DNA of 46,026 nucleotides from a virus. The stretch spans positions 1 to 46,026 of IMG/VR virus record IMGVR_UViG_3300017605_001531. One strand, written 5' to 3'. Position numbers and translations under genes: made by a program. This document shows, in pieces, positions 24,259 to 40,664 of this stretch. Within the stretch, counting starts at the first letter, position 1; every line of letters begins with the position of its first letter. The notes beneath the pieces were generated by a model, which did no database searches, was not told the origin of the DNA, and worked only from the letters and a program-made list of their open reading frames with translations.

Positions 24259-25229
24259 TCCTTGTCCTCCTTGAGTTCGAGCCACTGCGCGTCGTTCACC
24301 GTGTGCGACGCGCGCTTCTTCAGCTTCGACACGAGACGCAGGCCGGAGTTCGGGAAGGTCGCGAGCGACGCTCCGTTCATCCTCGAGAGGAGCGCGTTCT
24401 GGTCAGCCTTCGCGAGATCGTCCCAGCCATCCGCGATCTTGCGATAGGAGGACGCCTCGGCGCGTCGCTGCCTCCAGCGCTCCGCGAGCTCCAGGTCCGC
24501 CGGCGCCATGATCGCCACCTTCTCCGGCACCGGCGGACACGCAGCCGCGAGCAGGGCCGAATCGTCGGGTCCGGCGTCGGGCAGCGGCACGTCTTCTCCC
24601 CTGCGACGCGCGAGCACCGTCTCCCATGCGGCGCGCAGGCGGCGAACCAGCGTCGCCTGGAACCTCTCGTCAGCCACGTAGGAGTAGATCCGAAACTCCG
24701 GCTCCCTCGCCATGAAGAGCACCGCGAGGTCCGCGTCTCGCAGCCCCGTGCAATACATCTGTTGCTGGACCTGGACTTGGTACGTGAGCGGCACACCCTT
24801 CTCGTCCCAGTCTTCGGAGTCGCCGGCGGTCTTGAACTCGACCAGGCGGCGTTCGTGCCCCTTCTCGTCGACCCAGCCGTCCGGCGTGCCGAGCACGAAC
24901 GGCGCCTCCGTGCGCAGGAAGATCGTGCGCTTCGACGGCGCGATCACGAAGAACGGGCGCTGCACCTCGAGCCCGCGCCAGTGCTCGTAGTTCGCGGCGA
25001 TGCCGGCTTCAAGGAGTTCGCGGATCTTGAGCGACCGCTTCTGCTCCTCGCTCTCCTGGCGCAGCTTCGCCGCGACAACGTCGGCGCCCGAGCGCCACTT
25101 CTTCCACTTGCCTGGCGGGAAGAACGCGGCCGACTCGCTCGCCCCGAAGCCGTGCTCGCGACGGAACGCGAGCCACTCATGGTCGAATTCGAACTCGAAC
25201 GATCGGACCGTCGAGACCTCGCTGCTCAT
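24255..25229 (-). CDS. YqaJ/lambda-type recombination exonuclease
   Basis: A 324-residue protein with GGAGGAAG before the ATG. Family motifs appear in order: GFGASESAAF (27-36), GTPDGWV (114-120), LVEFKTA (129-135) and PLTYQVQVQQQMYC (147-160), which form the metal-binding nuclease centre of lambda-exonuclease/YqaJ enzymes (Asp117, Glu131, Lys133). Such enzymes chew one strand of double-stranded ends and load an annealing protein, here encoded immediately downstream with a 4-base overlap. The C-terminal third is charged and helical. The start overlaps the stop of a zinc-ribbon microprotein as ATGA. Confidence 0.88.
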   Translation of the reverse strand: MSSEVSTVRSFEFEFDHEWLAFRREHGFGASESAAFFPPGKWKKWRSGADVVAAKLRQESEEQKRSLKIRELLEAGIAANYEHWRGLEVQRPFFVIAPSKRTIFLRTEAPFVLGTPDGWVDEKGHERRLVEFKTAGDSEDWDEKGVPLTYQVQVQQQMYCTGLRDADLAVLFMAREPEFRIYSYVADERFQATLVRRLRAAWETVLARRRGEDVPLPDAGPDDSALLAAACPPVPEKVAIMAPADLELAERWRQRRAEASSYRKIADGWDDLAKADQNALLSRMNGASLATFPNSGLRLVSKLKKRASHTVNDAQWLELKEDKE

Positions 25230-25372
25230 CGGCTCGCTTCCTCCGCTTCAATCTGCCGCTGCTCGCGACAGGATCGGCACTCGTTCACGCCGTCGCTGCG
25301 CTTGGCGCCGCAGGTCGGGCACTCGCGCGGGTCGATGCACGGGACTTCAGGAGGCTTCTTCGCTTCATCCAC
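25226..25372 (-). CDS. Zinc-ribbon microprotein (48 residues)
   Basis: A 48-residue gene between the methyltransferase and the exonuclease. The GTG at 25372 has AAGGAG 8 bases upstream and lies inside the last codons of the methyltransferase (8-base overlap); the stop overlaps the exonuclease start as ATGA. The protein holds a compact four-cysteine cluster, CPTCGAKRSDGVNECRSC (18-35), which should bind one zinc, and ends with a Gln/Glu-rich helix. Tight coupling on both sides suggests a real small protein, possibly an accessory to the exonuclease or methyltransferase. Confidence 0.75.
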   Translation of the reverse strand: MDEAKKPPEVPCIDPRECPTCGAKRSDGVNECRSCREQRQIEAEEASR

Positions 25373-26696
25373 GTGGGGACTCCTTCACGGCACGAGCCGC
25401 GAGAGTTCGGAACGCCACAGCCGCAACCAGCGGGACCACCGCGTTCCCGATGGATCGGAGGCGATCGGCTCGGTCCACCCAGGCGGCAGGCCCATCAACG
25501 CCTCGACGAAGGACGGGGCGAGCACCGCCGTCGCGGAGGTAACGCGCCCATCCGACACCGTCCGAAGGACTTGGCGGCCAAGCGGCTCGCTCCCCTCGAA
25601 CTTGCACGCCGTCGAATCGTTCCTCGCGTCCCGCGCGATCGGCGTCGCCCACAGGCTCGCTTGGTTCGCAAGCTGTTGCCCGTGGTCGACCTGCCTCGGC
25701 GCATGCGTCCGCTCGTGGCTGGTCGGCGTCGCCCACAGCAGCGAGGCGATCGTCAGCGGCGTCCCCATCCCGTTGCCGTTGCAGTGCTTCGCGAGGTTCT
25801 TCTTCTGGCGCGCTCGCCACGACTCGATCGCCTCCCCGTCGTTCACCACCGAGGCGTTCGGTGTCGGCCAGAGGTACGCCGCGTCCGTCAGCGTCTTCCC
25901 GTCGTGGCGCCCGCTCTTCGTCGAGAAGCCCTTCGCGCGCGATCCGTCGCAGTCCTTCGCGGTCGCGGTAGGCCAGCGCGAAGAGGCGCTCGCGTCGATG
26001 CGGCGCGCCCACGCTCTCCGCGGAGAACACGTCCCACTCCGCATCGAACCCGAGGTCGGCAAGGTCGCCAAGGACTTCGGCGAAGCCAAGCGCCAGGTGT
26101 CCGCGGACGTTCTCGAGGAAGACGGCTCGAGGCTCGACCTCGGCGACGATGCGTCGAACATGCGGCCAGAGGTGTCGTTCGTCGCGCTCGGCAAGCTGCC
26201 TGCCAGCGACCGAGAACGGCTGGCACGGGTAACCGGCAGTGACAAGATCCACTCGCCCACGCCAACCGCGGCCGCTGAAGGTTCGGAGATCGTCGGCCAC
26301 AGGCGCTCGATCCAGCGCCGCTTCTTCCATCCTCGCCACGAGGACGGACGCGGCGAAGGCGTCCCGCTCAACGTAACACACGCACTGGGCGTCGCAGGCG
26401 AGGCGGAGCCCGAGCTCGAGTCCGCCGATGCCGGTGCAGAGGGAGAGGGTCGCAGGCCGGGCACGAAGAGCCATCCCATGTTGGTCGACGTCCTTGTCCT
26501 CGAAGACGAGCGGGTCGATCCAGGCCGACGCAGCCCCGCCGCACGCGAGGCAGAAGTGGAAGCCGTAGAACGGAAAGTTCGCTGCGTTCGTGCAGGGATC
26601 ACCGTCGGGACGAATCCCTTCGCAGTATCCGTCGTGCGCGCGCGCCTCCGCGGTCGCGTGGACGAATCGAAGGCGAATCGCGTCGGCGGCCTTCAC
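25365..26696 (-). CDS. DNA cytosine-5 methyltransferase with N-terminal cysteine cluster
   Basis: A 443-residue protein, GTG start coupled to the upstream gene (GTGA). C5-methyltransferase motifs are clear: LSLCTGIGGLELGL (84-97, AdoMet binding), GYPCQPFSVAGR (155-166, with catalytic Cys158), FLENVRG (193-199), VGAPHRRERLFALA (229-242) and RLRSIGNAVVPLVA near 413-426. It methylates DNA cytosines at an unknown site, likely shielding phage DNA from restriction. An extra 80-residue N-terminus carries Cys25, Cys35, Cys49 and Cys52, a probable zinc ribbon. From motif VIII onward the +1 frame is also open and encodes another methyltransferase-like C-terminus, described separately. Confidence 0.88.
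   Translation of the reverse strand: MKAADAIRLRFVHATAEARAHDGYCEGIRPDGDPCTNAANFPFYGFHFCLACGGAASAWIDPLVFEDKDVDQHGMALRARPATLSLCTGIGGLELGLRLACDAQCVCYVERDAFAASVLVARMEEAALDRAPVADDLRTFSGRGWRGRVDLVTAGYPCQPFSVAGRQLAERDERHLWPHVRRIVAEVEPRAVFLENVRGHLALGFAEVLGDLADLGFDAEWDVFSAESVGAPHRRERLFALAYRDREGLRRIAREGLLDEERAPRREDADGRGVPLADTERLGGERRGGDRVVASAPEEEPREALQRQRDGDAADDRLAAVGDADQPRADACAEAGRPRATACEPSEPVGDADRAGREERFDGVQVRGERAAWPPSPSDGVGWARYLRDGGARPVLRRGVDGPAAWVDRADRLRSIGNAVVPLVAAVAFRTLAARAVKESPRG
25385..26044 (-). other. Second coding-like frame inside the methyltransferase gene
   Basis: In the +1 frame relative to the methyltransferase, an open frame ends at 25385. From about 25975 down it encodes four tryptophan-centred repeats (RWPTATAKD, LWPTPNAS, LWATPTSH, LWATPIARD) and a C-terminal FVEALMGLPPGWTEP segment. 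These resemble the variable region and end of another common class of phage cytosine methyltransferase. In the main frame the same bases encode matching repeats of LADTERLG/VGDADRAG type and the IGNAVVP motif. Expression could come from an internal ATG at 26044 (219 residues, no Shine-Dalgarno seen) or a +1 frameshift near 25975. Whether it is translated is unknown. Confidence 0.5.
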
Positions 26697-26974
26697 TCGA
26701 GCGAGATCCCTTCTCGCTGCGCGAAGCCGCGAATCGCGTCGGCCACCGTCAGCAGCAGGCGACCCGTCGTCACCGCCTGCACATGATGCTCTACGAGGTT
26801 GTCGCGGCGAGGAAGCCCGTCGACCGCCGTGAACCCGATCGCGACGATCACCTTCCGCTTCCCGCCTCCGTTGTCGACCTTGAGTGCGAAGCGCAGGTCG
26901 CCCTTCTCCGCGAGCCCGCCATGCACGATCGCGTCGAAGACGTGCGGTTCGAGGAAAATCTGAAGCGCTTCCAA
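26693..26974 (-). CDS. Hypothetical protein
   Basis: A 93-residue protein starting with TTG; GGGAGG is 8 bases upstream and no better start exists. It contains a beta-rich middle (LRFALKVDNGGGKRKVIVAIG) and a helical end (LLLTVADAIRGFAQREGI). No family is recognised. It is the first gene of the stretch leading into the methyltransferase, with which it shares a GTGA overlap. Confidence 0.65.
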   Translation of the reverse strand: MEALQIFLEPHVFDAIVHGGLAEKGDLRFALKVDNGGGKRKVIVAIGFTAVDGLPRRDNLVEHHVQAVTTGRLLLTVADAIRGFAQREGISLE

Positions 26975-26975
26975 G

Positions 26976-27398
26976 TTAGCAACCTCCCGTAATCATCTTT
27001 CGGTTGACCCAGCGCCGCATGTGGACCCAGCGAGCGCGTGCCGCGTTGGTGTGGCGCCACGTTGGGCACTCGTCGTTCTCTTCCGCGATCTCCGCCGCAA
27101 GCGCCGGTGCAATGCCGAGCAGGGAGGCGACATCGTCCTTCTCTTCGGGATCGACCTCCTGGATCTTCTCCGCAGGAATCCCGCGCGCAACGGCAACGCA
27201 CCCCATCGCGCAGACCTCGCCGTCCAGCGTGACGAGTTCCTCCGCGACCAGTTCCTTCACTGGCATGGCGTCGAGCGCGGCGGCGAGTTCGCGCAAGAAT
27301 CGCTGCCCGCGCTTGCCGCGAATCGCCGCCTTCACCGCGCCCCTCCAGCGGATCAGGTCCCACTGGTCGATGTCGTACGAGTACCCGCTGCGGCTCAT
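26976..27398 (-). CDS. Conserved-type phage hypothetical protein
   Basis: A 140-residue protein from the ATG at 27398, overlapping the upstream stop as ATGA. Its start, YDIDQWDLIRWRGAVKAAIR, followed by GKRGQRFLRELAAALDAMP, LDGEVCAMGCVAVARG and a C-terminal MRRWVNRKM, matches a hypothetical protein I recall from many phages of GC-rich hosts. Function of that family is unknown to me. It lies in the early small-gene chain. Confidence 0.75.
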   Translation of the reverse strand: MSRSGYSYDIDQWDLIRWRGAVKAAIRGKRGQRFLRELAAALDAMPVKELVAEELVTLDGEVCAMGCVAVARGIPAEKIQEVDPEEKDDVASLLGIAPALAAEIAEENDECPTWRHTNAARARWVHMRRWVNRKMITGGC

Positions 27399-27730
27399 TC
27401 CTCGCACCTCGCTTCTTCGGTGAACCCGTACAGCTTCGCCGCGTCGCGGATCGAACCTTCGACGATGCCGACCTTCTCGCCTTCGCGCGAGTCCTTGTCC
27501 GCGTACTGGCGCAGCAGTTCCAGCACGCGCTCGCCGAAGTCTGCGTAGAGCATCGGGTTGACGATCGTGCGTCGCGGCCGCTCCTCTTGCTGCTCGTGCT
27601 CGCGCAGCGCGGCGCGGATCAGCGAGTGGACGGCGAGGTTCCATGCCGCCTGTTCTTGCGGGGTCTTCGCGCCGATCGAAACGTCGAACGTGCGCCGCAG
27701 CGCGTTCGCCTCGTCTTCGGTGAGTCTCAT
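27395..27730 (-). CDS. Hypothetical helical protein
   Basis: A 111-residue mostly helical, charged protein starting at the ATG at 27730 and coupled at both ends by ATGA overlaps. Segments such as LTEDEANALRRTFDVSIGAK and ERVLELLRQYADKDSREGE are amphipathic helices. No family is recognised. Confidence 0.7.
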   Translation of the reverse strand: MRLTEDEANALRRTFDVSIGAKTPQEQAAWNLAVHSLIRAALREHEQQEERPRRTIVNPMLYADFGERVLELLRQYADKDSREGEKVGIVEGSIRDAAKLYGFTEEARCEE

Positions 27731-28065
27731 GCGTGGCAGGCTCCGCAGATGGTGCCGGCTTCGTGGCACAGGCACGCGCAGTTCAGCCCGCACTCGCAGC
27801 CGTCGCACGCGACCGGCTTCCCGTCCTTGACGAGCGGCAGGCCGTGCTCCTCGCACCATGTCGGAGCGCGCGCAGCGTCGTACGGCAACGGCGAATCGAC
27901 CAGCGCGATCTCGGCGAACGTGAAGTGCTGCTCGCATTGCGGGCACCACACGTCGTCGAGAGGGTAGTCGTCCTTCACCTCGTTCGTGTTCGGGTCGATC
28001 CACGCCGCGACTTCGATGTCCGTGCAGCCGCAGCAGCCGCACGCTTGCAGCTTCTTGTCGCTCAT
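27727..28065 (-). CDS. Cysteine-rich zinc-binding protein
   Basis: A 112-residue protein beginning MSDKKLQACGCCGCTDIEV, with more than a dozen cysteines: CGCCGC near the start, CPQCEQH (42-48), and a dense C-terminal group CDGCECGLNCACLCHEAG followed by CGACH. Two or three zinc sites are likely. The start ATG at 28065 overlaps the preceding stop; the upstream in-frame extension is arginine-rich shadow sequence and is excluded. Function unknown. Confidence 0.7.
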   Translation of the reverse strand: MSDKKLQACGCCGCTDIEVAAWIDPNTNEVKDDYPLDDVWCPQCEQHFTFAEIALVDSPLPYDAARAPTWCEEHGLPLVKDGKPVACDGCECGLNCACLCHEAGTICGACHA

Positions 28066-28454
28066 CGTGAGCACCCCGCGCATGAGTGCGCCGCACGTGG
28101 GTATGGGTTCGGGCGCCCGTCCGGCGTGCGGCGATTCTGTCCGCAGATCGGGCAGCGGTCGGGCGTGCTTCGAGCGCCGATCGGTCGCCCGAGTTTCTCC
28201 TTCAGTGCGAGGAGCGCGTGCATCGCGTCGCACGCGATGGAGAAGACGCTGCCAGGCCCGTCCCCGCCTTCGTCTTGCCACTTCGCGACGAACGGCAGGA
28301 ATCGCGGATGCGTCAGCCCCACCGATCGCCGCGTCCGGTCCTTGTGGATGATCTCGCGCACGTGCGCGAGGAGGACGTGGTGTTCGCTCGCCGCGTGCGC
28401 CGCCTGGAAGCGGTCGCCGCGCGTGATGACGTAGACGTTGTGCGAATCGCTCAT
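28062..28454 (-). CDS. Hypothetical protein with C-terminal zinc motif
   Basis: A 130-residue protein from the ATG at 28454 (MSDSHNVYVITRGDRFQAAH). It has an alpha/beta body and a C-terminal CPICGQ...CAGC pair that probably binds zinc. It is coupled to both neighbours by ATGA overlaps. No family is recognised. Confidence 0.68.
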   Translation of the reverse strand: MSDSHNVYVITRGDRFQAAHAASEHHVLLAHVREIIHKDRTRRSVGLTHPRFLPFVAKWQDEGGDGPGSVFSIACDAMHALLALKEKLGRPIGARSTPDRCPICGQNRRTPDGRPNPYPRAAHSCAGCSR

Positions 28455-28639
28455 CGCGCACCGCCGTTCGGACCGCAGAGTTCGTAGAGGTAGTCGATCC
28501 ACCGCTGCCGGAGGAATCGCGGATTCTGCCGGCCGCAGAAGGCCGCGAGCGCTTCGACCACGCGCTCGCGCTCCCACTTCGCGCGAGGCAGCACCGGACG
28601 GATCGCGTCGGCGAGCGCGACGAATTGCTTCTTCGTCAT
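28451..28639 (-). CDS. Small hypothetical protein
   Basis: A 62-residue basic helical protein (TKKQFVALADAIRPVLPRAK; NPRFLRQRWIDYLYELCGP) starting at the ATG at 28639 with ATGA overlaps on both sides. The FVALADAIRP opening resembles short phage proteins often found next to early genes. Function unknown. Confidence 0.68.
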   Translation of the reverse strand: MTKKQFVALADAIRPVLPRAKWERERVVEALAAFCGRQNPRFLRQRWIDYLYELCGPNGGAR

Positions 28640-28989
28640 GGAATCACCGGAACGATCGTCGCCGCAAGGCGCTGCGCCTCTGCCGTCGCACCCTTGCGGC
28701 GGTTCCAGTGCTGGAACTCGCCGACCGTGTCGATTCGGCCTGGTCGATGCCCGCCGAGCGGGACCAGCGTCGCGACGCGGATCGTGAATCGACGCGGCGC
28801 CTTCACGCCATCGGACCCGACGAACTGCTCGCCCGTCACGAAGTAGGCGAAGCGTCCATCGCGCGACTTGAACGCTTCGGCAGGAATCGACGACCGGAAG
28901 AATCGGATCGTCGCGCTCTCGAAGAAGTATTGCCCGGCCGCTTCGTTCAGGCGGCGAATCTCGTCTAGGGAAACCGTTTCCAGTTTCAT
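28636..28989 (-). CDS. Conserved-type phage protein, first gene of a leader-A unit
   Basis: A 117-residue protein starting MKLETVSLDEIRRLNEAAGQ and continuing with YFFESATIRFF, RFAYFVTGEQFVGSDGV and RRFTIRVATL. This matches a widespread small phage protein family of unknown function; I believe it is a numbered DUF (possibly DUF7447) but cannot confirm. The ATG at 28989 is preceded by AAAGAGGAG with a 7-base gap, part of the repeated leader. It heads a long chain of overlapping genes running down to the glycosylase-like gene. Confidence 0.78.
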   Translation of the reverse strand: MKLETVSLDEIRRLNEAAGQYFFESATIRFFRSSIPAEAFKSRDGRFAYFVTGEQFVGSDGVKAPRRFTIRVATLVPLGGHRPGRIDTVGEFQHWNRRKGATAEAQRLAATIVPVIP

Positions 28990-29045
28990 CAGTGAACTCC
29001 TCTTTGGTGGACCTCAGGAGCGCGCGCGCGACCGTGCGCGCCGCT
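28990..29045 (-). promoter_or_regulatory. Repeated early leader, copy A
   Basis: On the - strand: inverted repeat GCGCGC-ACGGTC-GCGCGC (core 29026-29039), then 28 bases from GGTC to AAAGAGGAG (about 28997-29005), then 7 bases to the ATG at 28989. Copy A shares AGGTCCA just before the ribosome site with copy C. The element lies at the 3' end of the upstream gene. Confidence 0.65.
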
Positions 29046-29328
29046 CCTCTCGGTAGTCGCATGATAGCACCCACAACGCGCGCTCTCGAAGCGTCTCGGT
29101 CGGCGCCGAGAGCAGATCATCCCACGCGCCGAACTGCCGCAGGAATCGCGTCAGCCCCTCGCGCTCGACCAGCCATTCGACGGACGAATCGCGCGCCCAG
29201 TGCCGGACATCCTCATCGCGCCGACCAGGTTGTCCACATTGGACAAATACGAACGCTGGCGCCGTCACGATCGCGCGCCCGGATTCCCCATCGTGCCGCG
29301 TGATGCGGCGCCTCTCCCATCGTGTCAC
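29014..29328 (-). CDS. Hypothetical protein
   Basis: A 104-residue protein from the GTG at 29328, chosen because AAGGGG is 6 bases upstream; a GTG at 29364 would add 12 residues. It contains FVFVQCGQPGRRDEDVRHWA and SVEWLVEREGLTRFLRQFGA-WDDL, a pattern I recall from small phage proteins of unknown function. The last residues (RRARSRARS) are encoded by leader copy A, so the coding end and the regulatory hairpin overlap. Confidence 0.6.
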   Translation of the reverse strand: MTRWERRRITRHDGESGRAIVTAPAFVFVQCGQPGRRDEDVRHWARDSSVEWLVEREGLTRFLRQFGAWDDLLSAPTETLRERALWVLSCDYREERRARSRARS

Positions 29329-29389
29329 GCTCGACCCCTTCTGAAACGCGGCGCGCGCGTTCACGCTGCACGCGCGCGCCGCATCGACC

Positions 29390-29878
29390 TTAGAACCGTT
29401 CCGGCAACCAGCCTTCGTCCCTGAACGAACGGAAGCCTTCGGCGACCACTACCACGTGGTCGATGAGACGGACCCCGAGCACGCTGCCAGCCTCGGCCAG
29501 CCGCAGCGTTACTTGATGATCCTCAACGCTCGGGGTCGCGTCGTCGCTCGGGTGATTGTGCGCGAGGATCACGCCAGCCGCGTTGTCCGCGATGGCGTGG
29601 CGGAACACCTCGCGCGGATGGATGACGGACGACATGAGCGACCCGATCGACACCTCATGCGCCGCGATGATGCGGCGCCGAGAATCGACGCTGAACGAGA
29701 GCACGTGTTCTCTCTCCTTCATGCCCGCGCCGACGATCGCTCGGAACGCTTCGGCCGCACCCTTCGCGTCGGCGAGTTCCTTGCCGCGCGTCGCCACGCT
29801 CGGCGCCTCACGTGCAGCGCCATCACGCAGCGTCAGCGTCCCGTGCAGCCCGGACGCTAGGGATACCTTCATCCTCAA
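29390..29878 (-). CDS. RadC-like JAMM-domain protein
   Basis: A 162-residue protein consisting of only the RadC/JAMM metalloprotease-like domain, without the helix-hairpin-helix part of bacterial RadC. The metal motif is complete: Glu57, HNHP with His107 and His109, Ser117 and Asp120. Around it are FSVDSRRRIIAAHEVSIGS and LIDHVVVVAEG, typical of the family. The start is a TTG at 29878, exactly 7 bases after AAAGAGGAG and overlapping the previous stop as TTGA; the ATG six bases on has no proper spacing. Role unknown; such proteins are common accessory genes. Confidence 0.85.
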   Translation of the reverse strand: MRMKVSLASGLHGTLTLRDGAAREAPSVATRGKELADAKGAAEAFRAIVGAGMKEREHVLSFSVDSRRRIIAAHEVSIGSLMSSVIHPREVFRHAIADNAAGVILAHNHPSDDATPSVEDHQVTLRLAEAGSVLGVRLIDHVVVVAEGFRSFRDEGWLPERF

Positions 29879-30087
29879 GGGGAGTCTCCTCTTTGGCATT
29901 GCCAGTAACACGCGGCGGGGACCATCCCGGCGCGATGCTCCCCTGCCCTTGCGGGCAGGGGAGCGAAACCGTTCACGAACGCTGCGAGTTCTTCGACATC
30001 ATGCGCGAGCGCGTGCGCCGCGTTGTCGTCCATCGGCGCGAGCGCGTGCGCGATGAGAAGAAGAAGCGTTGCCGTCTCGCGCCTCAT
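29875..30087 (-). CDS. Small hypothetical protein overlapping leader B
   Basis: A 70-residue protein from the ATG at 30087 (MRRETATLLLLIAHALAPMD), with ATGA and TTGA overlaps at its two ends. The first half is helical (AAHALAHDVEELAAFVNGF). The second half is encoded by a 12-bp perfect hairpin and by leader copy B, so its sequence may be constrained by the nucleic acid rather than the protein. The overlaps support translation. Confidence 0.55.
   Translation of the reverse strand: MRRETATLLLLIAHALAPMDDNAAHALAHDVEELAAFVNGFAPLPARAGEHRAGMVPAACYWQCQRGDSP
29879..29930 (-). promoter_or_regulatory. Repeated early leader, copy B
   Basis: On the - strand: inverted repeat CGGGATGGTCCCCG (29916-29930), 29 bases from GGTC to AAAGAGGAG, then 7 bases to the TTG at 29878. 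Its stem GGGA/TCCC replaces GCGA/TCGC of copies C and D, a compensatory change of one base pair. Confidence 0.65.
29937..29964. terminator. Perfect 12-bp hairpin upstream of leader B
   Basis: GCTCCCCTGCCC (29937-29948) and GGGCAGGGGAGC (29953-29964) pair perfectly around a 4-base loop (TTGC on +, GCAA on -). GCAA is a stable GNRA tetraloop on the - strand, the direction of local transcription. No U-run follows. It may end or stall the upstream transcript before leader B. Confidence 0.55.
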
Positions 30088-30158
30088 TCGTCGTCGCGAC
30101 CTCTTGTCGCGAGCAACGCGAACGCGAGCACGGCAACCAGAAGAACAACGGCGATCAT
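30084..30158 (-). CDS. 24-residue membrane microprotein
   Basis: The ATG at 30158 has AAGGAAGG 6 bases upstream and overlaps the previous stop (ATGA); the stop TGA overlaps the next ATG in the same way. The peptide is a single hydrophobic helix (MIAVVLLVAVLAFALLATRG) with a charged end RDDE. Spacing, ribosome site and overlaps make it credible despite its size. It probably sits in the inner membrane. Confidence 0.6.
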   Translation of the reverse strand: MIAVVLLVAVLAFALLATRGRDDE

Positions 30159-30373
30159 GCGGGACCTTCCTTGCCATCCGGCCGCGAGCAACGCGCGCAG
30201 AAGACTTCGGTACGCTCGGCCACGTGAAGTCGATCCACACGGCGCACGCTGCCCTTCGTCTTCTCACCCATCGCGCCGAGGTGCCGAACGAGGTCAAAGA
30301 GGAGCGCCGTCACGTTGTCCAGCCGCTCGCGCACGCGCTCCAGTTCGTGCGTGACGGGGTCCTTGCACCTCAC
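30155..30373 (-). CDS. Small protein with C-terminal CxxC
   Basis: A 72-residue protein from the GTG at 30373, overlapping the preceding stop as GTGA with GGGGA upstream. A helical body (HELERVRERLDNVTALLFDL) is followed by a basic stretch and FCARCSRPDG. No family is recognised. Confidence 0.6.
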   Translation of the reverse strand: MRCKDPVTHELERVRERLDNVTALLFDLVRHLGAMGEKTKGSVRRVDRLHVAERTEVFCARCSRPDGKEGPA

Positions 30374-30588
30374 GTGAGGTCCCCAGCGTTCGGGGCGTCG
30401 ATCGTGCAAGCGGACCATCCGATCCGGGCCCGGATGTTGTCTACGTGCGCGAGCGCGGCAGGGTGAGAGAGCGGCGACACCATCGCTCGGTAGCGTTCTT
30501 CCCAAGAAGACGAATGGGAAAGGCCAAGTTCCGCGAGGTCGAAGGCGCCGAGCGACGACGGGTCGGGGAATTCGGGTGCGCAACCCAT
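30370..30588 (-). CDS. Small hypothetical protein
   Basis: A 72-residue protein from the ATG at 30588, one base after the upstream stop. It reads MGCAPEFPDPSSLGAFDLAE followed by WEERYRAMVSPLSHPAALA. No ribosome site is obvious and no family is recognised. Its existence is supported mainly by the GTGA overlap with the next gene. Confidence 0.55.
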   Translation of the reverse strand: MGCAPEFPDPSSLGAFDLAELGLSHSSSWEERYRAMVSPLSHPAALAHVDNIRARIGWSACTIDAPNAGDLT

Positions 30589-30589
30589 G

Positions 30590-31084
30590 TCAGCGGTAAC
30601 CACGGAAGGCGCCGTCGTCTTCGTCTTCGCCGCCGCGCGGGAGGATGCGCGCGATGCCAGCCTTCGGCATCGGGCAGCCGTCCGCGTGGCCGATCGGCGA
30701 GAGCGTTCCATCCTCGTTCATTCCGACGATCGCGCCGCATCCGGCGCACGGGTAGTGCCGATCGGAGTCGCGCGCCTCGGGCTTCCATGTGACGAAGAAC
30801 AGCGCCCCGGCTTCATGCGCCAGCCTCACGCTTTCGTCGTCGCTCATCACGCGCGCGACCGCTTCGCCGCGCGCGCGTTCGGAGTCTTGCCACCATCGCG
30901 CGAGCGCGGCAGCGTCGCGAAGGGGAACGCGGAGCATCGTCGCCGCGCCACCCGCAACGATGGCCGAGAGCAACATCGGCGCGAGCGCGTTGCGCGGCTG
31001 AATGACCGTTCCATGCACGCCCCAGCGTTCGGCAGCCTCTAGCGCTTCGCGCTCCGACCCGACAACAATCGCCATTGCGAACAT
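30590..31084 (-). CDS. Hypothetical protein, first gene of a leader-C unit
   Basis: A 164-residue protein whose ATG at 31084 lies 8 bases after AAAGAGGAG of leader copy C. The N-terminal half is Ala-rich and helical (MLLSAIVAGGAATMLRVPLR). The C-terminal half has a zinc-type cluster CAGCGAIVGMNEDGTL followed by HADGCPM and an acidic end. No family is recognised. Confidence 0.7.
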   Translation of the reverse strand: MFAMAIVVGSEREALEAAERWGVHGTVIQPRNALAPMLLSAIVAGGAATMLRVPLRDAAALARWWQDSERARGEAVARVMSDDESVRLAHEAGALFFVTWKPEARDSDRHYPCAGCGAIVGMNEDGTLSPIGHADGCPMPKAGIARILPRGGEDEDDGAFRGYR

Positions 31085-31152
31085 CGTTCGTGCTCCTCTT
31101 TGGACCTTGAGAGGAGCGCGCTCGCGACCATCGCGCACGCGCTCCTGAAACG
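31085..31152 (-). promoter_or_regulatory. Repeated early leader, copy C
   Basis: On the - strand the 13-bp inverted repeat CGCGATGGTCGCG (31123-31135) is followed, 28 bases from GGTC, by AAAGAGGAG and, 8 bases later, the ATG at 31084. An outer GGAGCGCG/CGCGCTCC stem encloses the core, as in copy A. Confidence 0.65.
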
Positions 31153-31193
31153 GCGTGGGGCCCGTCGCGCACGCGCGCGTCCGGGCCCCACGC
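31153..31193 (-). terminator. Terminator-like hairpin after the histone-tail-like gene
   Basis: GCGTGGGGCCCG (31153-31164) and CGGGCCCCACGC (31182-31193) form a perfect 12-bp stem with a 17-nt GC-rich loop. On the - strand it comes 10 bases after the stop at 31203 and is followed by CGTTTC. It fits a terminator separating the leader-D unit from the leader-C unit. Confidence 0.6.
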
Positions 31194-31202
31194 TTCATCG
31201 GA

Positions 31203-31484
31203 TCAGCGTGCCGCGCGAGCGGGGCGCCGCGTGCTCGGCGCCTTCTTCGTCACGCGCGCCTTCTTCGTCGCGGCCTTCGCGGCCTTCCCCTTCTTCGGCG
31301 CGAGGTCGCACGGAGTCGGGCAAGCGTGCCGCTCCGCGACCTCGGGACCTTCGTCCGTGCTCTCGTCGCGCGACCCGCAAGCGTTCGGGTCGCTCGGGGT
31401 CGCGCACCCGTTCCGCTCGCCGCTCGCAGCGCTCTCGGCCTTCGCCATCGCGGCCGCGAGCATGAGGCTTAGGACATCGTTCAC
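31203..31484 (-). CDS. Small protein with histone-tail-like C-terminus
   Basis: A 93-residue protein. The GTG at 31484 is 7 bases after AAAGAGGAG of leader D. An N-terminal helix (MNDVLSLMLAAAMAKAESAA) precedes a Cys-containing acidic region (four Cys) and a Lys/Ala/Arg-rich tail, PKKGKAAKAATKKARVTKKA, like the C-terminal tails of histone H1 or bacterial H1-like proteins. DNA binding or host nucleoid interference is possible. It is the first gene of the - strand early region, with its own leader and terminator, which suggests strong immediate expression. Confidence 0.65.
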   Translation of the reverse strand: MNDVLSLMLAAAMAKAESAASGERNGCATPSDPNACGSRDESTDEGPEVAERHACPTPCDLAPKKGKAAKAATKKARVTKKAPSTRRPARAAR

Positions 31485-31540
31485 GTGTTCGCTCCTCTTT
31501 GCGCTGTGCGCGCGAGCGCTGCCGCGACCATCGCGAGAGC
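31485..31540 (-). promoter_or_regulatory. Repeated early leader, copy D
   Basis: On the - strand CGCGATGGTCGCG (31523-31535), the same 13-mer as copy C, then 29 bases from GGTC to AAAGAGGAG, then 7 bases to the GTG at 31484. Surrounding sequence differs from copy C, so the shared parts appear selected. Confidence 0.65.
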
Positions 31541-31560
31541 ATCCGCGCGCGATGTGTTCA

Positions 31561-31603
31561 AGTTAACGCGAACATCGGCACGCGCAACGGGGCAGCGTTA
31601 ACT
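31561..31603. promoter_or_regulatory. Inverted repeat in the divergent control region
   Basis: AGTTAACGC (31561-31569) and GCGTTAACT (31595-31603) are perfect inverted copies with centres 34 bp apart, about three helical turns. They lie between the - strand early region and the + strand replication region and look like a pair of operators. The 31541-31637 gap holds this repeat and the TAGGAT element; no gene is seen in it. Confidence 0.5.
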
Positions 31604-31622
31604 AAATCCGGCGCGCGTTCGG

Positions 31623-31628
31623 TAGGAT
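31623..31628 (+). promoter_or_regulatory. TAGGAT -10-like element
   Basis: TAGGAT is followed by 9 bases and the ATG at 31638, the same geometry as TATAAC at 16943-16948 (reverse strand) and 38485-38490. Transcription would begin close to the ATG. No good -35 is seen. Confidence 0.35.
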
Positions 31629-31637
31629 GCGCGGACC

Positions 31638-32543
31638 ATGAAGACGCACAACAAGACGACCCCGAAGAAGGCGCGCCGATCCGACAAGGGCGGGCGCCCG
31701 CCGATGCCGCGCGCGAGCGTGCGATCGGTGCTCGTCGCACTCAAGGTCCGACGCGCGCACGCTGCCACGATCCGACGCGCGATGCGAGCGCTTCGCTCCG
31801 ACCTCGAGACGGGCCCGATCGGTCGCTCGAGCTTGGGGTCGGATGCTCCCGCGCCGGCGTCACCTGGTGACGAGCGACCGGCTTCGCGACCCCGAGGGAA
31901 GAAGGCTGCGGCGAGCACGTGCGCGGAGAGCATGGGGAATGTCCCGAATGGTCGTCCGTTCGCACCCTTGCGGAAACCGTGCGCCGTTGGTACTGACTCC
32001 TCGACGGACATCGGTTCACGCTCCCGATGCGCGTGCGAATCTCCCGGCGGGGAAGCGGAGCGGGGACGGGGCGCGATCGTCCCTTCGCCCCGGAGCGGGG
32101 AAGTGTCCGATAATCATGGTTATGATGCGCTCGCCTCGGAACGCGCGACCCACGCCCCCACCCACCCCGCCCATGATCTCCGGGAACCCGCGACGCGCGT
32201 CCCCCATGACTCCCTTCCACCTCCTCGCGTGCGTCACCTCCTGGAACGGTCCCTTGAGGGTGGTCGCGAGTCCGAAGGAGTGACTCCCGAAGGACTTGCA
32301 GCGCCCGTGCAGCTGCCGCAGGGAGGTTCCTTTCCGGTGGTCGAGTCCGTGCAGGGGAAGGTGTTCTTCCTCGACGGGCGCGGGCGGAAGCGGGTGAAGG
32401 AGGTCCCTTCGGCATTCCGAGAGGCGCTCGAGGGTGGTCGGGCAGGAGCGCTCGATCGGTTCTGGCAGGGAGTGCGGCGGAGGGAGAAGGCGCAGGACCG
32501 AGGAATCCTGAAGGCGCTGCGGAATGGGATGGGACCAGCATGA
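31638..32543 (+). CDS. Hypothetical protein, uncertain extent
   Basis: The open frame gives 301 residues from the ATG at 31638. The first 60 residues are basic and may bind DNA (TPKKARRSDKGGRPPMPR; KVRRAHAATIRRAMRALRSD). Residues about 60-210 are low-complexity Ser/Pro/Arg and look weakly coding. The last 80 (VQGKVFFLDGRGRKRVKEVP; FWQGVRRREKAQDRGILKAL) look real and end in an ATGA overlap with the next gene. A near-palindrome lies in the middle. It may be one gene, or a short regulator plus a second gene starting near the GTG at 32280. Confidence 0.4.
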   Translation: MKTHNKTTPKKARRSDKGGRPPMPRASVRSVLVALKVRRAHAATIRRAMRALRSDLETGPIGRSSLGSDAPAPASPGDERPASRPRGKKAAASTCAESMGNVPNGRPFAPLRKPCAVGTDSSTDIGSRSRCACESPGGEAERGRGAIVPSPRSGEVSDNHGYDALASERATHAPTHPAHDLREPATRVPHDSLPPPRVRHLLERSLEGGRESEGVTPEGLAAPVQLPQGGSFPVVESVQGKVFFLDGRGRKRVKEVPSAFREALEGGRAGALDRFWQGVRRREKAQDRGILKALRNGMGPA

Positions 32544-32668
32544 GCGCGGCGGCGTGCGTGCGTCAACTGCTGTGGGACCTGCGCTTCCGGGCGATGATCC
32601 GAGCCATGCTCCGGGGTCCGCGGATTCGCGGGTGGAGTGATCGGCGCCGCGCGAAGAGGCGAGCGTGA
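32540..32668 (+). CDS. Small basic protein (42 residues)
   Basis: Starts at the ATG at 32540 overlapping the previous stop (ATGA) and ends in a GTGA overlap with the next gene. The product is arginine-rich and helical (CVRQLLWDLRFRAMIRAMLR; GWSDRRRAKRRA). No family; support comes from the unbroken chain of overlaps. Confidence 0.5.
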   Translation: MSAAACVRQLLWDLRFRAMIRAMLRGPRIRGWSDRRRAKRRA

Positions 32669-32829
32669 GCACGAAGAGGCGGAGGCCGCGGCGGAGCGTG
32701 CGCGTGCAGAGGGCGCTCGAGCGTCGCCAGCGCGGCTACACGCTGCGCATCAACTCGTTGCTGAATAAGCTCTTCCGACCGTTCTTCGTGAAGTTCCAGA
32801 ACGGGTCGCCCAGGGTCGAGTGGCAGTAG
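32665..32829 (+). CDS. Small basic protein (54 residues)
   Basis: Starts at the GTG at 32665, coupled to the gene before it, and ends inside the start of the next one. It begins STKRRRPRRSVRVQRALERR and has an aromatic segment LLNKLFRPFFVKFQNG. Strong positive charge suggests nucleic-acid binding. No family is recognised. Confidence 0.5.
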   Translation: MSTKRRRPRRSVRVQRALERRQRGYTLRINSLLNKLFRPFFVKFQNGSPRVEWQ

Positions 32830-33119
32830 CCGTCGTGAGCCAGGCCGGCGACCAGAGGAAGATCGGGCGCCTGATGATGCGGCTGACGCTGCTGCATCGG
32901 CAGTTCCGAGACGTCGGTGACCTGCTGCGCCAGCTCTCCGACCCGGCGACCGTGCCGTGCGTCATGTGGGGCATGAAGCCGGAGCTCGACGCCGAGCGCT
33001 TCGTCCACGTGCGGGAGCGCCTGCAGGAACTCCTGCTCGCCGTGAAGCTCGAACTCGAGCTCACGAGGAAGGCGCTCTTCGAGGCGGGGACGCTGAACTC
33101 GGACGTCGACGTGGATTGA
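32820..33119 (+). CDS. Hypothetical helical protein
   Basis: The product is 99 residues from the GTG at 32820; a GTG at 32835 would also fit. It is helical and Leu/Glu-rich (MRLTLLHRQFRDVGDLLRQL; RLQELLLAVKLELELTRKAL) and ends in an acidic NSDVDVD. Last gene before the inverted repeat that precedes the replication gene. No family recognised. Confidence 0.65.
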   Translation: MAVAVVSQAGDQRKIGRLMMRLTLLHRQFRDVGDLLRQLSDPATVPCVMWGMKPELDAERFVHVRERLQELLLAVKLELELTRKALFEAGTLNSDVDVD

Positions 33120-33131
33120 GCTTGTCACGTA

Positions 33132-33158
33132 CGGTTACGTCGTTATCGTGCGTAACCG
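33132..33158. promoter_or_regulatory. Inverted repeat upstream of the replication gene
   Basis: CGGTTACG (33132-33139) and CGTAACCG (33151-33158) form a perfect 8-bp inverted repeat with an 11-bp spacer that is AT-richer than its surroundings (TCGTTATCGTG). It ends 27 bases before the ATG. It is a likely operator or initiator binding site. Confidence 0.5.
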
Positions 33159-33185
33159 GCCTGCGACGCGTAGGGGAGACGCTCG

Positions 33186-34136
33186 ATGCCGTTCGTCAAG
33201 CTCGACTGCGGGATGCTCGACAGCTCGATCTGGCCGGACCGAGAGGCTCGAGCGCTCTTCATCACGGCGCTCTTGATGGCAGACCCCTTCGAGGTCGAGC
33301 GTCCGGAGAAGACCTTCAAGTCCTCCGGGGAGGTCGACGAGTCGTTCGTGGTCCCAGTCGGGTGGTACGGCCGCGTGAGCGCGTCGGGCTCGGGGATCAT
33401 TCGGCGCTGCGGCATCGACGAGCAGGAGGGGTTCGAAGCGCTCTACCGCCTCGCGCAACCCGACCCCGACAGCAGGACGCCGGACTACGAGGGGCGCCGC
33501 ATGGTTCGTGTCGACGGCGGCTACCTGATCTTGAACTTCGACCGGCACCGCCGTCGCGACCACTCCGCCGCGGAGCGCCAGCGCCGATACCGCCTCCGGT
33601 TGAAGGAGTCGTCACCTAATAACAACGTCACGTCACACGTGACAACGTCACGAGTAACGCAAGCAGAAGGAGAAGGAGAAGCACAGGATTCGAATTCCTC
33701 GCCGCAGTCGGTTCCTTCGGAACCTCCTTTGGCTTCCCCTCCGCCGTCTGCGACGGCTGCGGGAGACCCTGCCGGTGCGGTGACGTCGACGCCGAAGAAG
33801 AAGCCGGAGCCGGTCGACTCGAGGCCCTGGCCGCCGCCGACGCCCGAACTGCAGCCGTTCTCGCGCTGGTGGACGCCGGCGATCCCGCCGATGCACCGCG
33901 CCGCGCAGCGCCGCTTCGTCGAGGACTTCGACGCCTACATGCAGACGCTCGACGCGGCCTACCCCCACGTCGACCTGCAGGGCGAGCTCGCGAAGGCGTA
34001 CGCGTGGGAGGAGGCGAGGGGCGCGAAGACCCCGAAGGGCAGGAAGGCGTTCCTGCGCAACTGGATCGAGCGCGCGGCGAACAGCTACCAGAAGCCGATG
34101 GCGCAGCAGCCCTACGGGCAGGCGATCCCGCGATGA
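33186..34136 (+). CDS. Lambda O-like replication initiation protein
   Basis: A 316-residue protein with AGGGGAG 7 bases before the ATG. The N-terminal 130 residues match the winged-helix domain found in many phage replication proteins: LDSSIWPDREARALFITALL, FEALYRLAQPDPDSRTPDYE, GRRMVRVDGGYLILNFDRHR and a basic RQRRYRLRLKE. A Ser/Pro/Ala-rich linker (about 140-215) follows, then a helical C-terminal domain with AKAYAWEEARGAKTPKGRKA-FLRNWIERA, similar to helicase-loader or primosome-interaction domains. By analogy with lambda O it would bind repeats in its own gene and recruit the host helicase. This is a family-level inference. Confidence 0.7.
   Translation: MPFVKLDCGMLDSSIWPDREARALFITALLMADPFEVERPEKTFKSSGEVDESFVVPVGWYGRVSASGSGIIRRCGIDEQEGFEALYRLAQPDPDSRTPDYEGRRMVRVDGGYLILNFDRHRRRDHSAAERQRRYRLRLKESSPNNNVTSHVTTSRVTQAEGEGEAQDSNSSPQSVPSEPPLASPPPSATAAGDPAGAVTSTPKKKPEPVDSRPWPPPTPELQPFSRWWTPAIPPMHRAAQRRFVEDFDAYMQTLDAAYPHVDLQGELAKAYAWEEARGAKTPKGRKAFLRNWIERAANSYQKPMAQQPYGQAIPR
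33611..33660 (+). other. Candidate replication origin with iteron-like repeats
   Basis: Inside the linker-coding part of the O-like gene there are four direct GTCAC sites (33611, 33627, 33632, 33647) and one inverted GTGAC (33639). The 10-mer CAACGTCACG occurs twice exactly 20 bp apart (33623-33632 and 33643-33652) around the near-palindrome GTCACACGTGAC. A purine-rich run of GAAGGA type follows. Lambda has its origin iterons in the same relative place in gene O. Confidence 0.5.
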
Positions 34137-34441: not shown

Positions 34442-34564
34442 ATGCGTGCCTGGGAACTCGTCCTGCTCTGCGGCACCGCGCTCACCTGCTTGCTCTTGGG
34501 CGCGCTCGTCGCGGTGATCGCCGTGCGCTCGAGCCTGAACGACGTGTTCAGGAATCGCAAGTGA
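34442..34564 (+). CDS. 40-residue membrane microprotein
   Basis: The ATG at 34442 lies 6 bases after TAGGAGG. The protein is nearly all one hydrophobic helix (ELVLLCGTALTCLLLGALVA) with a short polar end (SSLNDVFRNRK). Its stop overlaps the next start as GTGA. Function unknown. Confidence 0.65.
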   Translation: MRAWELVLLCGTALTCLLLGALVAVIAVRSSLNDVFRNRK

Positions 34565-34785
34565 ACCTGCCGCGCAAGCAGGACGTCGCGTGCTCGCGCT
34601 GCGGCGCGCACAGCTTCTTCCTGGTCACGAACCTCGTGCGTGCTGTCGTGCTGCGCTGCGCGTGCTGCCCGTACTGGGTCGAGGCCGATTCGATCGCGGA
34701 CGCGTTGAAGAAGATCGAGGCGAAGCCTGCAGCGAAGGAGGATCACGATGCCGTGGCCGACAAGACGCCCGAAAACGCCGGCTAA
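34561..34785 (+). CDS. Small zinc-ribbon protein
   Basis: A 74-residue protein from the GTG at 34561. It has CSRCGAHSF near the start and CACCPYWVE in the middle, a two-pair zinc ribbon, followed by a helix and a polar tail. It overlaps the next gene by 38 bases. Confidence 0.68.
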   Translation: MNLPRKQDVACSRCGAHSFFLVTNLVRAVVLRCACCPYWVEADSIADALKKIEAKPAAKEDHDAVADKTPENAG

Positions 34786-38498: not shown

Positions 38499-38966
38499 AT
38501 GCCACCTGGCGTTAACCCTGCGCCCGCGCAAGCTGCGCGACGGAACCGGAACAACGAGGCGATCCGCGCCTACCGCCGCATCGCCGCTGGGCTGCTCGAG
38601 AGCGCGAGGACGAAGACCGAGGCGTCGCGCGACCTGAACGACAAGGAGTCGTACGCCGCGCTCTGCCTCGCGTTCACCGGCCTCACGTGGGACATCCGCG
38701 TCCTGCGCGACATGCTCATGTTCCTCGGTCGCATCCACGGCCACGATCAGCAGCGCGCGATCGTCCTCGAGGACCCGTCGAGCTATCACGCGCTGATCGA
38801 CGCGCTGCGTGCGCAGCAGGCAAAGATGATCGACGCCCCGCCGGCGCCTCCGCGCGAAGAGAACGTGATCGACGTTGACACCGCCTCGTTCGAAGGTTTG
38901 CGGGAGGAACTGAACGGCTCCGATGCAGACAGGGTTGACGCAGCAGGCGACCCCAACGAGCGCTGA
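38499..38966 (+). CDS. Possible terminase small subunit
   Basis: A 155-residue protein directly upstream of the large terminase, with which it overlaps by 44 bases. It has a basic N-terminus (AQAARRNRNNEAIRAYRRIA), a helical core (LLESARTKTEASRDLNDKES; WDIRVLRDMLMFLGRIHGHD) and an acidic C-terminus. Position suggests a small terminase, but I see no convincing helix-turn-helix, so the role is inferred from context only. The start follows a TATAAC element by 8 bases and has no ribosome site. Confidence 0.55.
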   Translation: MPPGVNPAPAQAARRNRNNEAIRAYRRIAAGLLESARTKTEASRDLNDKESYAALCLAFTGLTWDIRVLRDMLMFLGRIHGHDQQRAIVLEDPSSYHALIDALRAQQAKMIDAPPAPPREENVIDVDTASFEGLREELNGSDADRVDAAGDPNER

Positions 38967-39726
38967 CGCTCTCGCGCGCGCGTACGCCGACCTGGAACTG
39001 ATCTCGCGTGAACTCCTGCGCGGAGGGCATGGCGAGGAGCGCGAGCTTCAACTCGCGCGCGCGTACGTGCTCGCGCAGGAGCGCGTCGCGCGTCTCGATC
39101 GCTGGTACTTCTGCCGCAACCTCGCGATCACGCAGGACGAGCACAACAAGGTCGAGCCGTTCGCTCCGTTCCCCGACCATCCCTACCTGCGCGAGCTCGC
39201 GCGCGAGTGGGACGAGTGCGCGCGCAAGACCGGCAACCGCATCCTCTACATCCTCAAGTCGCGGCAGATCATGGCGTCATGGAGCGCCTGCGCGATGGTG
39301 CTCTGGTCGTCGCTCTTCGAGCGCGCGCAGACGATCGGCTGGCAGAGCAAGAAGGCCGAGGACGCGAACTGGATGCTGAAGTCGCGGATCTTCGGCATGT
39401 GGGAGCGCCTCCCGGAACTGGTTCGCCGACGTCATCCTTGCGAGGACCGCGAAGGCGAGCTTCGCTTCCCGTACACCTTCGACGACTTCGGGCGCAAGGT
39501 CGACCTGAAGAACGTCGTGATGGGGCTGCCGGAAGGGCCCGACAAGCCGCGCCAGTTCACATGGTCGCTCTTCGTGTCCGACGAATCCGCGTTCCAGGAT
39601 CGCAGCTTCGAGACCTACGTCGCGTGCCAGCCGGCGATCCGCGGCGGCGGCATGTACGTGTCGATCAGCACGGCAGCGATGAGCCACCACTACGACATGT
39701 GCGAGGACAGGAAGTACCAGCAATGA
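38923..39726 (+). CDS. Terminase large subunit, ATPase half (split gene)
   Basis: A 267-residue protein equivalent to the ATPase domain of large terminases, the DNA-packaging motor. A Walker-A-like KSRQIMASW (112-120) follows NRILYILK, a Walker-B-like SLFVSDESAF (215-224, Asp220/Glu221) comes later, and SISTA (247-251) fits the coupling motif. The reading frame stops after KYQQ, where a normal terminase would continue into the nuclease. The nuclease gene starts in another frame at an ATGA overlap. Both halves look intact, so coupled translation of two chains is likely. Confidence 0.75.
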   Translation: MQTGLTQQATPTSADALARAYADLELISRELLRGGHGEERELQLARAYVLAQERVARLDRWYFCRNLAITQDEHNKVEPFAPFPDHPYLRELAREWDECARKTGNRILYILKSRQIMASWSACAMVLWSSLFERAQTIGWQSKKAEDANWMLKSRIFGMWERLPELVRRRHPCEDREGELRFPYTFDDFGRKVDLKNVVMGLPEGPDKPRQFTWSLFVSDESAFQDRSFETYVACQPAIRGGGMYVSISTAAMSHHYDMCEDRKYQQ

Positions 39727-40664
39727 TCTCCGGCACGCACCGCGTCCTCGTGAAGTCGTGGCGCGCCGAAGGTGCGATGACGCGCCAAGAGAACCACAAC
39801 GGCGCGACCGTACTCAAGATCCACTACTCCGCCGATCCGGCGAAGACGAACGAGTGGGCCGACGACTTCGCGAAGACGCTGCAGGGCCGCGACTCGTGGT
39901 CCTGGCTCGCCGAAATGGAAATGCAGGCCGAGGCGTACGGCGGCAAGCGGATCTTCCCGGAGTTCACGCGCGAGACGCACACGATCGAGCCGCTCACCGA
40001 GATTCCTGCCGAGTGGCCGAAGTACCGCGTGATCGACCCCGGCCTCGACCACGCGCTCGCTTGCGGCTTCTACGTGCTCGACCCGCATCGACAGGAGATC
40101 ATTAAGTTCGACGAGCACGTGCAGGCCGACTGGCCGGAGATCGAGCGCCACGCGTCCGTCATCAAGGGCAAGACCGCCAAGCACCAGATCCAGACGACGT
40201 GGATGGACCCGTCCGCCTTCGCCGAGACGCTCGCCGGCCAGGGCAAGTCGGTCGCGCAACTCTTCATCGCGAACGGGATCACGTGCTGCCCGGCCGCGAA
40301 GACCGACAAGCTCGTGCAGATCGCCTCGCTCGCGAACCTGCTCATGCTGCGCGGCGACCAGCCGCGGATGAAGTGGACGAAGAACTGCGAAGTCTCGATC
40401 GACCAGATGCTCAAGTACCGCTGGCTGCCACGGCTGCACGACGACAAGCCGTCCCCGCAGAAGCCCTACAAGGTGTACGACGACTGCGTCGACTGCGACC
40501 TCTACCTCTCTCTCGGGGTCGACCCGGTGAAGGCGTCGGACGCCTGGGTGATGCGCGACCCGCTGAGTCGCTGGTACGGCGGCAACGATCGGCGTAGGAT
40601 CGCCGCCGACACGCGGCGCATGTACGAAGCCATGAACCGCGACCCGGCGAACGAAGAGCCGTGA
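39723..40664 (+). CDS. Terminase large subunit, nuclease half (split gene)
   Basis: A 313-residue protein corresponding to the linker and RNase H-like nuclease of large terminases. The opening has VLKIHYSADPAKTNEW (30-45) and GGKRIFPEF (73-81), typical of the region after the ATPase. The nuclease has YRVIDPGLDHA (101-111, Asp105), TTWMDPSAF (158-166, Asp162) and a C-terminal acidic group YDDCVDCD (252-259), a plausible metal-binding triad. It starts at the ATG at 39723, overlapping the ATPase stop by four bases. It would cut concatemers during packaging together with the separate ATPase chain. Confidence 0.75.
   Translation: MISGTHRVLVKSWRAEGAMTRQENHNGATVLKIHYSADPAKTNEWADDFAKTLQGRDSWSWLAEMEMQAEAYGGKRIFPEFTRETHTIEPLTEIPAEWPKYRVIDPGLDHALACGFYVLDPHRQEIIKFDEHVQADWPEIERHASVIKGKTAKHQIQTTWMDPSAFAETLAGQGKSVAQLFIANGITCCPAAKTDKLVQIASLANLLMLRGDQPRMKWTKNCEVSIDQMLKYRWLPRLHDDKPSPQKPYKVYDDCVDCDLYLSLGVDPVKASDAWVMRDPLSRWYGGNDRRRIAADTRRMYEAMNRDPANEEP

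Follow-up and report, generated by a model that had tools for sequence, protein, structure and literature searches.

Four minus-strand genes of an unclassified bacterial virus (IMG/VR record IMGVR_UViG_3300017605_001531, analyzed over its whole length of 46,026 nucleotides, positions 1–46026, hereafter the window) are preceded by copies of one leader, in which a hairpin with a conserved loop is followed at a fixed distance by an invariant Shine–Dalgarno sequence. The genes start at 31484, 31084, 29878, and 28989, and are referred to here, together with their leaders, as A, B, C, and D, respectively. The copies share this arrangement, maintain their pairing with diverged arms, and retain both loop and spacing, and in the 46 kb genome the arrangement is found at these four sites only.

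Given that the arms vary and the pairing is kept, that the loop is conserved, that all copies face one way, and that the distance to the Shine–Dalgarno is fixed, we favor an mRNA element that may act at translation initiation or on mRNA stability via a putative loop-binding factor, a reading to which we attach a probability of roughly 40%. The four copies would then represent one repeated mRNA leader module: a hairpin with a near-invariant A-Y-G-G-U(C) tip would form in the transcript, separated by roughly 25 nt from a strong and uniform Shine–Dalgarno downstream of it, the putative factor would bind its loop, and the element would act as RNA, at translation initiation. The pattern suggests that the four genes are controlled together by something recognizing the hairpin tip. 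A narrower proposal, advanced only tentatively and somewhat unlikely as it stands, is a multigene translational operator in which a single RNA-binding factor recognizes the AYGGU(C) tip and coregulates four unrelated genes in one operon; if true, a portable leader module would underlie a posttranscriptional regulon. A case in which the letters of the upstream repeat vary and its pairing persists would separate an RNA from a DNA reading and offer a concise way to test how phages adjust a handful of genes within a long operon, and a loop-binding factor, if it exists, would be a natural multigene translational regulator.

Anatomy and Pairing of the Four Leaders

On the minus strand, each leader runs from the hairpin through 24–25 nt after GGTC to the motif AAAGAGGAG, and then through 7–8 nt to the start codon. 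The original prediction had described a shared leader at the four starts, and both its sequence and its coordinates were confirmed, as were the differing start codons (GTG at 31484, ATG at 31084, TTG at 29878, and ATG at 28989). The gap between GGTC and AAAGAGGAG measures 25, 24, 25, and 24 bases in A, B, C, and D, which agrees with the 28–29 bases first reported, a count that began at the first G of GGTC, and the distance from AAAGAGGAG to the start is 7, 8, 7, and 7 bases, likewise as predicted. The end of GGTC lies 40–41 nt before the start in four of four copies (41, 41, 41, and 40), despite unequal stem lengths. The base preceding AAAGAGGAG is C in all four copies, CAAAGAGGAG occurs exactly at the four genes 7–8 nt before the start, and every copy has the same orientation, on the coding strand.

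The hairpin of copy A (31508–31550, minus strand, as are all leader coordinates) closes on an AUGGU loop at 31531–31527 with 18 pairs and small internal mismatches (−29.7 to −29.9 kcal/mol), and its AAAGAGGAG lies at 31492–31500. Copy B (31112–31146; AAAGAGGAG at 31093–31101) has the same AUGGU loop at 31131–31127 and 15 pairs with one G/A mismatch (−27.8 kcal/mol). Copy C, the weakest (29911–29934; AAAGAGGAG at 29886–29894), presents AUGGUC at 29925–29920 on eight pairs with one C/C mismatch, and copy D (29016–29048; AAAGAGGAG at 28997–29005) presents ACGGUC at 29035–29030 on 13 pairs with one bulge (−28 to −30 kcal/mol).

When each copy was read in its own loop register, 16 of 16 inner-stem cells paired. 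Outward from the loop, the inner pairs are G-C, C-G, G-C, C-G in A and B, G-C, G-C, G-C, C-G in C, and C-G, G-C, C-G, G-C in D, and the exchange of G-C and C-G on both sides of the stem, claimed earlier for the copy at 29878, is real. Because the alternating GC arms of D can pair in numerous registers, it is the change in copy C that is informative. The letters of the loop and of the Shine–Dalgarno are invariant save for one pyrimidine, whereas those of the arms differ and yet pair; it is this retention of pairing and loop under varying arm sequence that favors an RNA reading.

Several observations weigh against a loop-bound mRNA element. Full pairing needs a register shift, with a five-base loop in two copies and a six-base loop in two; in one fixed register, 11 of the 16 inner-stem cells pair (68.8%), and common-register covariation does not exceed that of shuffles over the whole structure scored, a structure that further included a trial helix between the 3′ arm and the Shine–Dalgarno, which failed, with 15% paired. 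The (GC)n arms of copy D make its pairing nearly trivial. In copy C, a competing fold wins when the neighboring stem-loop T2 is included only in part (when T2 is there, the minimum is the fold as drawn), and this copy would be crossed by ribosomes translating the upstream open reading frame (ORF) at 29875–30087, if that ORF is real. A constant spacing in base pairs with varying stem length suits DNA as well, the loop-binding factor is itself putative, and the evidence comprises four copies in a single genome with no relatives for comparison. The claim of a selected hairpin at fixed spacing to the ribosome-binding site was supported, with the qualification that pairing in all copies requires the shift in register. 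The sense strand folds better than the antisense in all four copies, but by less than the mean of a control chosen for strong sense-strand folds, and this comparison is accordingly no evidence either way.

Rarity of the Arrangement in the Genome

The motif was picked after viewing the data, and the following figures therefore describe its rarity and do not test it. The window contains five occurrences of AAAGAGGAG: four belong to the leaders, and the fifth runs antisense to the operon, on the plus strand. Among 162 AGGAG sites on both strands, A[CT]GGTC stands at the right distance in four, which are the four leaders. Dinucleotide shuffles of each leader yielded A[CT]GGTC at a gap of 24–25 in 12, 20, 17, and 20 per 20,000, and once in 20,000 for each leader when a stem of at least four pairs was also demanded. 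When the 108 A[CT]GGT sites of the window are ordered by the energy of a local hairpin that carries the motif in its loop, the leaders hold places 1, 2, 3, and 5; by a simpler count of at least four inner pairs, they fall within 12 of these 108. Minus-strand 44-nt segments that fold as well as A, B, C, and D amount to 0.1%, 0.2%, 1.7%, and 0.1%, respectively. That a motif defined from one copy should by chance find three more matches is very unlikely.

The four copies were combined in a covariance model, which scores them at 48.3–61.9 bits, by construction, and its best other match in the window (24340–24392, plus strand; 20.1 bits, E 0.0059) is without AAAGAGGAG and antisense to the RecE-like gene. 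By eye, the Shine–Dalgarno is weak or absent at most other gene starts listed, so that the four initiation regions stand out. No Rfam family matched the window at gathering score, the leader region showing sub-threshold matches at chance level only.

Alternative Explanations

The rival that survives best, at rather low odds, is a passive translation-enhancing leader, in which the hairpin would insulate the ribosome-binding site and protect the mRNA with no specific binder, the copies having arisen by duplication. Copies B and D do look like duplicates, sharing AGGAGCG...CGCGCTCCT and AGGTCC, and the predicted folds leave much of the Shine–Dalgarno open (mean unpaired 0.44, 0.62, 0.53, and 0.66 in A, B, C, and D). 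The leader of T7 gene 10, made from a phage RNA polymerase promoter, is similar in layout to this picture, with a 5′ hairpin and then a strong Shine–Dalgarno; in the present genome, however, no RNA polymerase gene was recognized. For an N4-type virion RNA polymerase, the large virion proteins gave no polymerase match in PHROGs or Pfam, and those of 1805 and 958 aa gave none among PDB sequences either, although distant forms could escape both searches. A passive role leaves unexplained the conserved AYGGU(C) tip, which is hard to account for in a mere clamp, as well as the fixed distance from tip to Shine–Dalgarno with unequal stems.

A DNA operator or promoter-operator, with a phage regulator binding the palindrome in DNA and controlling a promoter at each gene, is unlikely. 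Its precedent lies in the cluster K mycobacteriophages, described in 2011, where a 13-bp motif at the ribosome-binding site (SAS) is accompanied by upstream inverted repeats (ESAS) (PMC3203893); according to the published account of phage Adephagia, its ESAS contain SigA-like promoters, with −35/−10 hexamers together with the inverted repeat (PMC11373665). The constant spacing in base pairs fits such an operator, as does a sigma-70-like match just upstream of copy D (29061–29089, minus strand; TCGAGA-17-TATCAT, the second hexamer being preceded by TG), which is a consensus match only. Three of the four copies, unlike the Adephagia elements, show no such promoter in a scan limited to the sigma-70 consensus, which found no other match on the minus strand between 28000 and 33200, and no promoter hexamers common to the copies were found. 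Moreover, the half-site letters are not kept, only the pairing, the axis of symmetry differs by half a base pair from copy to copy, and strong stem-loops directly precede B and C, leaving little room for a promoter. Of the options raised in the original prediction (early promoter, operator, or RNA control element), a shared promoter is not supported, with a match at one of four copies, and the RNA element is tentatively favored.

A transcription or processing element, either a nut- or put-like antitermination hairpin or an RNase III site for passing or cutting at the stem-loops T1–T3, is quite improbable: T1 and T2 directly precede copies B and C and T3 follows gene C, and in T7, RNase III cleaves the early mRNA at intergenic hairpins, but such an element does not require a fixed Shine–Dalgarno spacing, and no boxA-like GCTCTTWA (up to one mismatch) occurs within 24720–33254 and hence near any copy. 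A lambda-type nut site, which places boxA (consensus GCTCTTWA) beside a boxB hairpin, is not supported, as boxA was not found near any copy at that threshold.

A switch hiding the Shine–Dalgarno was likewise rejected as an explanation common to the four copies. The 3′ arm of copy B, GCTCCTCT, is perfectly complementary to AGAGGAGC within the Shine–Dalgarno region; when the 5′ arm was barred from pairing, mean openness of the Shine–Dalgarno fell from 0.62 to 0.23 in B, but it went from 0.44 to 0.52 in A, from 0.53 to 0.41 in C, and from 0.66 to 0.65 in D. A short ORF that begins in the loop, upstream of the gene, was also discarded: by eye, its TGA overlaps the start codon in A and C, not in B, and D has no ATG, which we take as a coincidence of spacing.

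Comparison with Known Systems

The closest known kind is the SAS/ESAS of the cluster K mycobacteriophages and, in the proposed mechanism, the operator hairpin of T4 gene 43. The likeness to SAS/ESAS lies in an unusually conserved ribosome-binding-site sequence, confined to a subset of nonstructural genes, with an upstream repeat or motif and a single orientation (PMC3203893, PMC11373665, PMC12699233, PMC7302621); a conserved motif 3–9 bp before several nonstructural starts has its counterpart here in CAAAGAGGAG at the four genes. Similar elements are reported in the cluster EF Microbacterium phages (PMC7302621). The SAS consensus GGGATAGGAGCCC, however, has no match in the window with up to two mismatches, and the EF consensus has two, neither at a leader. 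ESAS repeats are described as 17 bp long and imperfect, with a sequence consensus (PMC3203893), whereas here the inverted repeat is present with arm letters that vary and pairing that is kept. In the discussion by Pope et al. (2011), departures from the ESAS repeat generally do not support RNA pairing, and DNA binding is favored (PMC3203893); the role of SAS/ESAS is still termed ill-defined in these accounts (PMC3203893, PMC11373665). Since the position is the same but the sequence and the mode of conservation differ, we regard the present leaders as a related kind and not as a member of SAS/ESAS.

With the gene 43 operator, the leaders share a loop that is conserved, there between T4 and RB69, while the length of the hairpin differs (PMC3014915). 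That operator serves one gene and, as described, includes sequence overlapping the ribosome-binding site (PMC3014915), whereas the present leaders precede four unrelated genes and their binder is putative. An operator of the gp43 type has its conserved-loop hairpin some 40 nt ahead of the start, a placement that all four leaders share, and is bound specifically by a phage protein that represses translation.

Search for Relatives

No close relative was found: there was no DNA match among phages, the head protein had no match, and the portal matched four phage records at 21–23% identity. Protein scans of viral contigs with gene B, gene D, portal, and head protein found no relative, nor was the portal found in genome contigs. 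In three scans of viral contigs with the element pattern, the first gave matches without a comparable hairpin among the best 40 of at least 131 ranked, the second gave 47 stretches with none in the 25 ranked matches inspected, and the third gave 34 stretches with none in the 16 of 36 inspected, two being the window's own. A background scan of other loci (3.99 Mb, both strands, the set being partly motif-enriched by selection) returned five weak cases, the best local fold being −12.1 kcal/mol.

Homologs of DUF7447, the family of gene D, were found at 25 viral and three genome loci, including those of Streptomyces phages. No AYGGT hairpin leader lies upstream of them in the 18 of 25 viral loci inspected, nor in that of Streptomyces phage NootNoot (locus L126), so that the leader seems tied to this phage and not to the gene family. 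The covariance model found nothing above 19.2 bits (E 0.071) over 33 loci, including all 28 with DUF7447, and nothing in four whole records (0/4), a search that had no positive control. At a locus sharing RecT/RecE-like genes (L143), the pattern fits once, with no hairpin by eye. In NootNoot, the DUF7447 gene lies among small genes, several of them about 120–145 bp apart. Inspected by eye, the gap ahead of many of these genes contains a hairpin resembling a terminator together with a TAGACT-type box, and also a ribosome-binding site; this is a different solution from the hairpin leader.

Genomic Context and Neighboring Features

An exact direct repeat of 141 bp is present at both ends of the contig (1–141 and 45886–46026), for which reason it is very likely complete, at about 45.9 kb, and probably represents a whole genome. 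Recognized genes include those for a P22-like portal, a major head protein, terminase, RecT, RecE, RusA, and RadC-like proteins. The minus-strand gene run begins at 31484 and heads left to the RadC-like, DUF7447, RecE, RecT, and RusA genes, with the leader at four genes within its first 2.5 kb. Gene A (31203–31484), the first of the run, encodes 93 aa with a basic C-terminal tail and no family match; gene B (30590–31084) encodes 164 aa with a Cys/His cluster near the C-terminus and again no family match; gene C (29390–29878) encodes a RadC-like JAB domain, with a TTG start that shares bases with the preceding stop codon (TTGA); and gene D (28636–28989) encodes a 117-aa DUF7447 protein (PF24239). 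Gene content and layout suggest that these four are early genes.

Four small ORFs form a chain at 29875–30588 (minus strand), overlapping by exactly four bases each (30370–30373, 30155–30158, 30084–30087, and 29875–29878) and running into the RadC-like gene. The hairpin of copy C sits within the 3′ end of the last of them (29875–30087), and that of copy D overlaps the end of another ORF (29014–29364). Copy B comes after gene A and stem-loop T1 (31151–31194, −39.8 kcal/mol), which lies between the two and is stronger than any other local hairpin on the minus strand. The stable T2 (29937–29964) is immediately upstream of copy C, and T3 (29341–29386, −33.8 kcal/mol) lies just past the stop codon of gene C. 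These three GC stem-loops, all on the minus strand and two of them followed by GTTTCAG, are candidate terminators, processing sites, or 3′ protectors. Copy A follows a divergent region ahead of gene A with an inverted repeat AGTTAACGC/GCGTTAACT at 31561–31603. The window has no exact copies beyond these two, and the repeat is perhaps the operator of divergent promoters.

On the plus strand, a 74-aa protein with two CxxC pairs (34561–34785) gives zinc-ribbon matches below threshold only; its pattern resembles that of Mu Com, and a role as RNA-binder, for it as for the product of gene A, would be a mere guess on our part. The terminase large subunit is apparently split between plus-strand ORFs at 38923–39726 and 39723–40664, which overlap as ATGA; the former matches terminase profiles, and the latter is a continuation by appearance, with no phage match. 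The Manatee Spring podovirus (MW202554) likewise carries two coding sequences named terminase large subunit.

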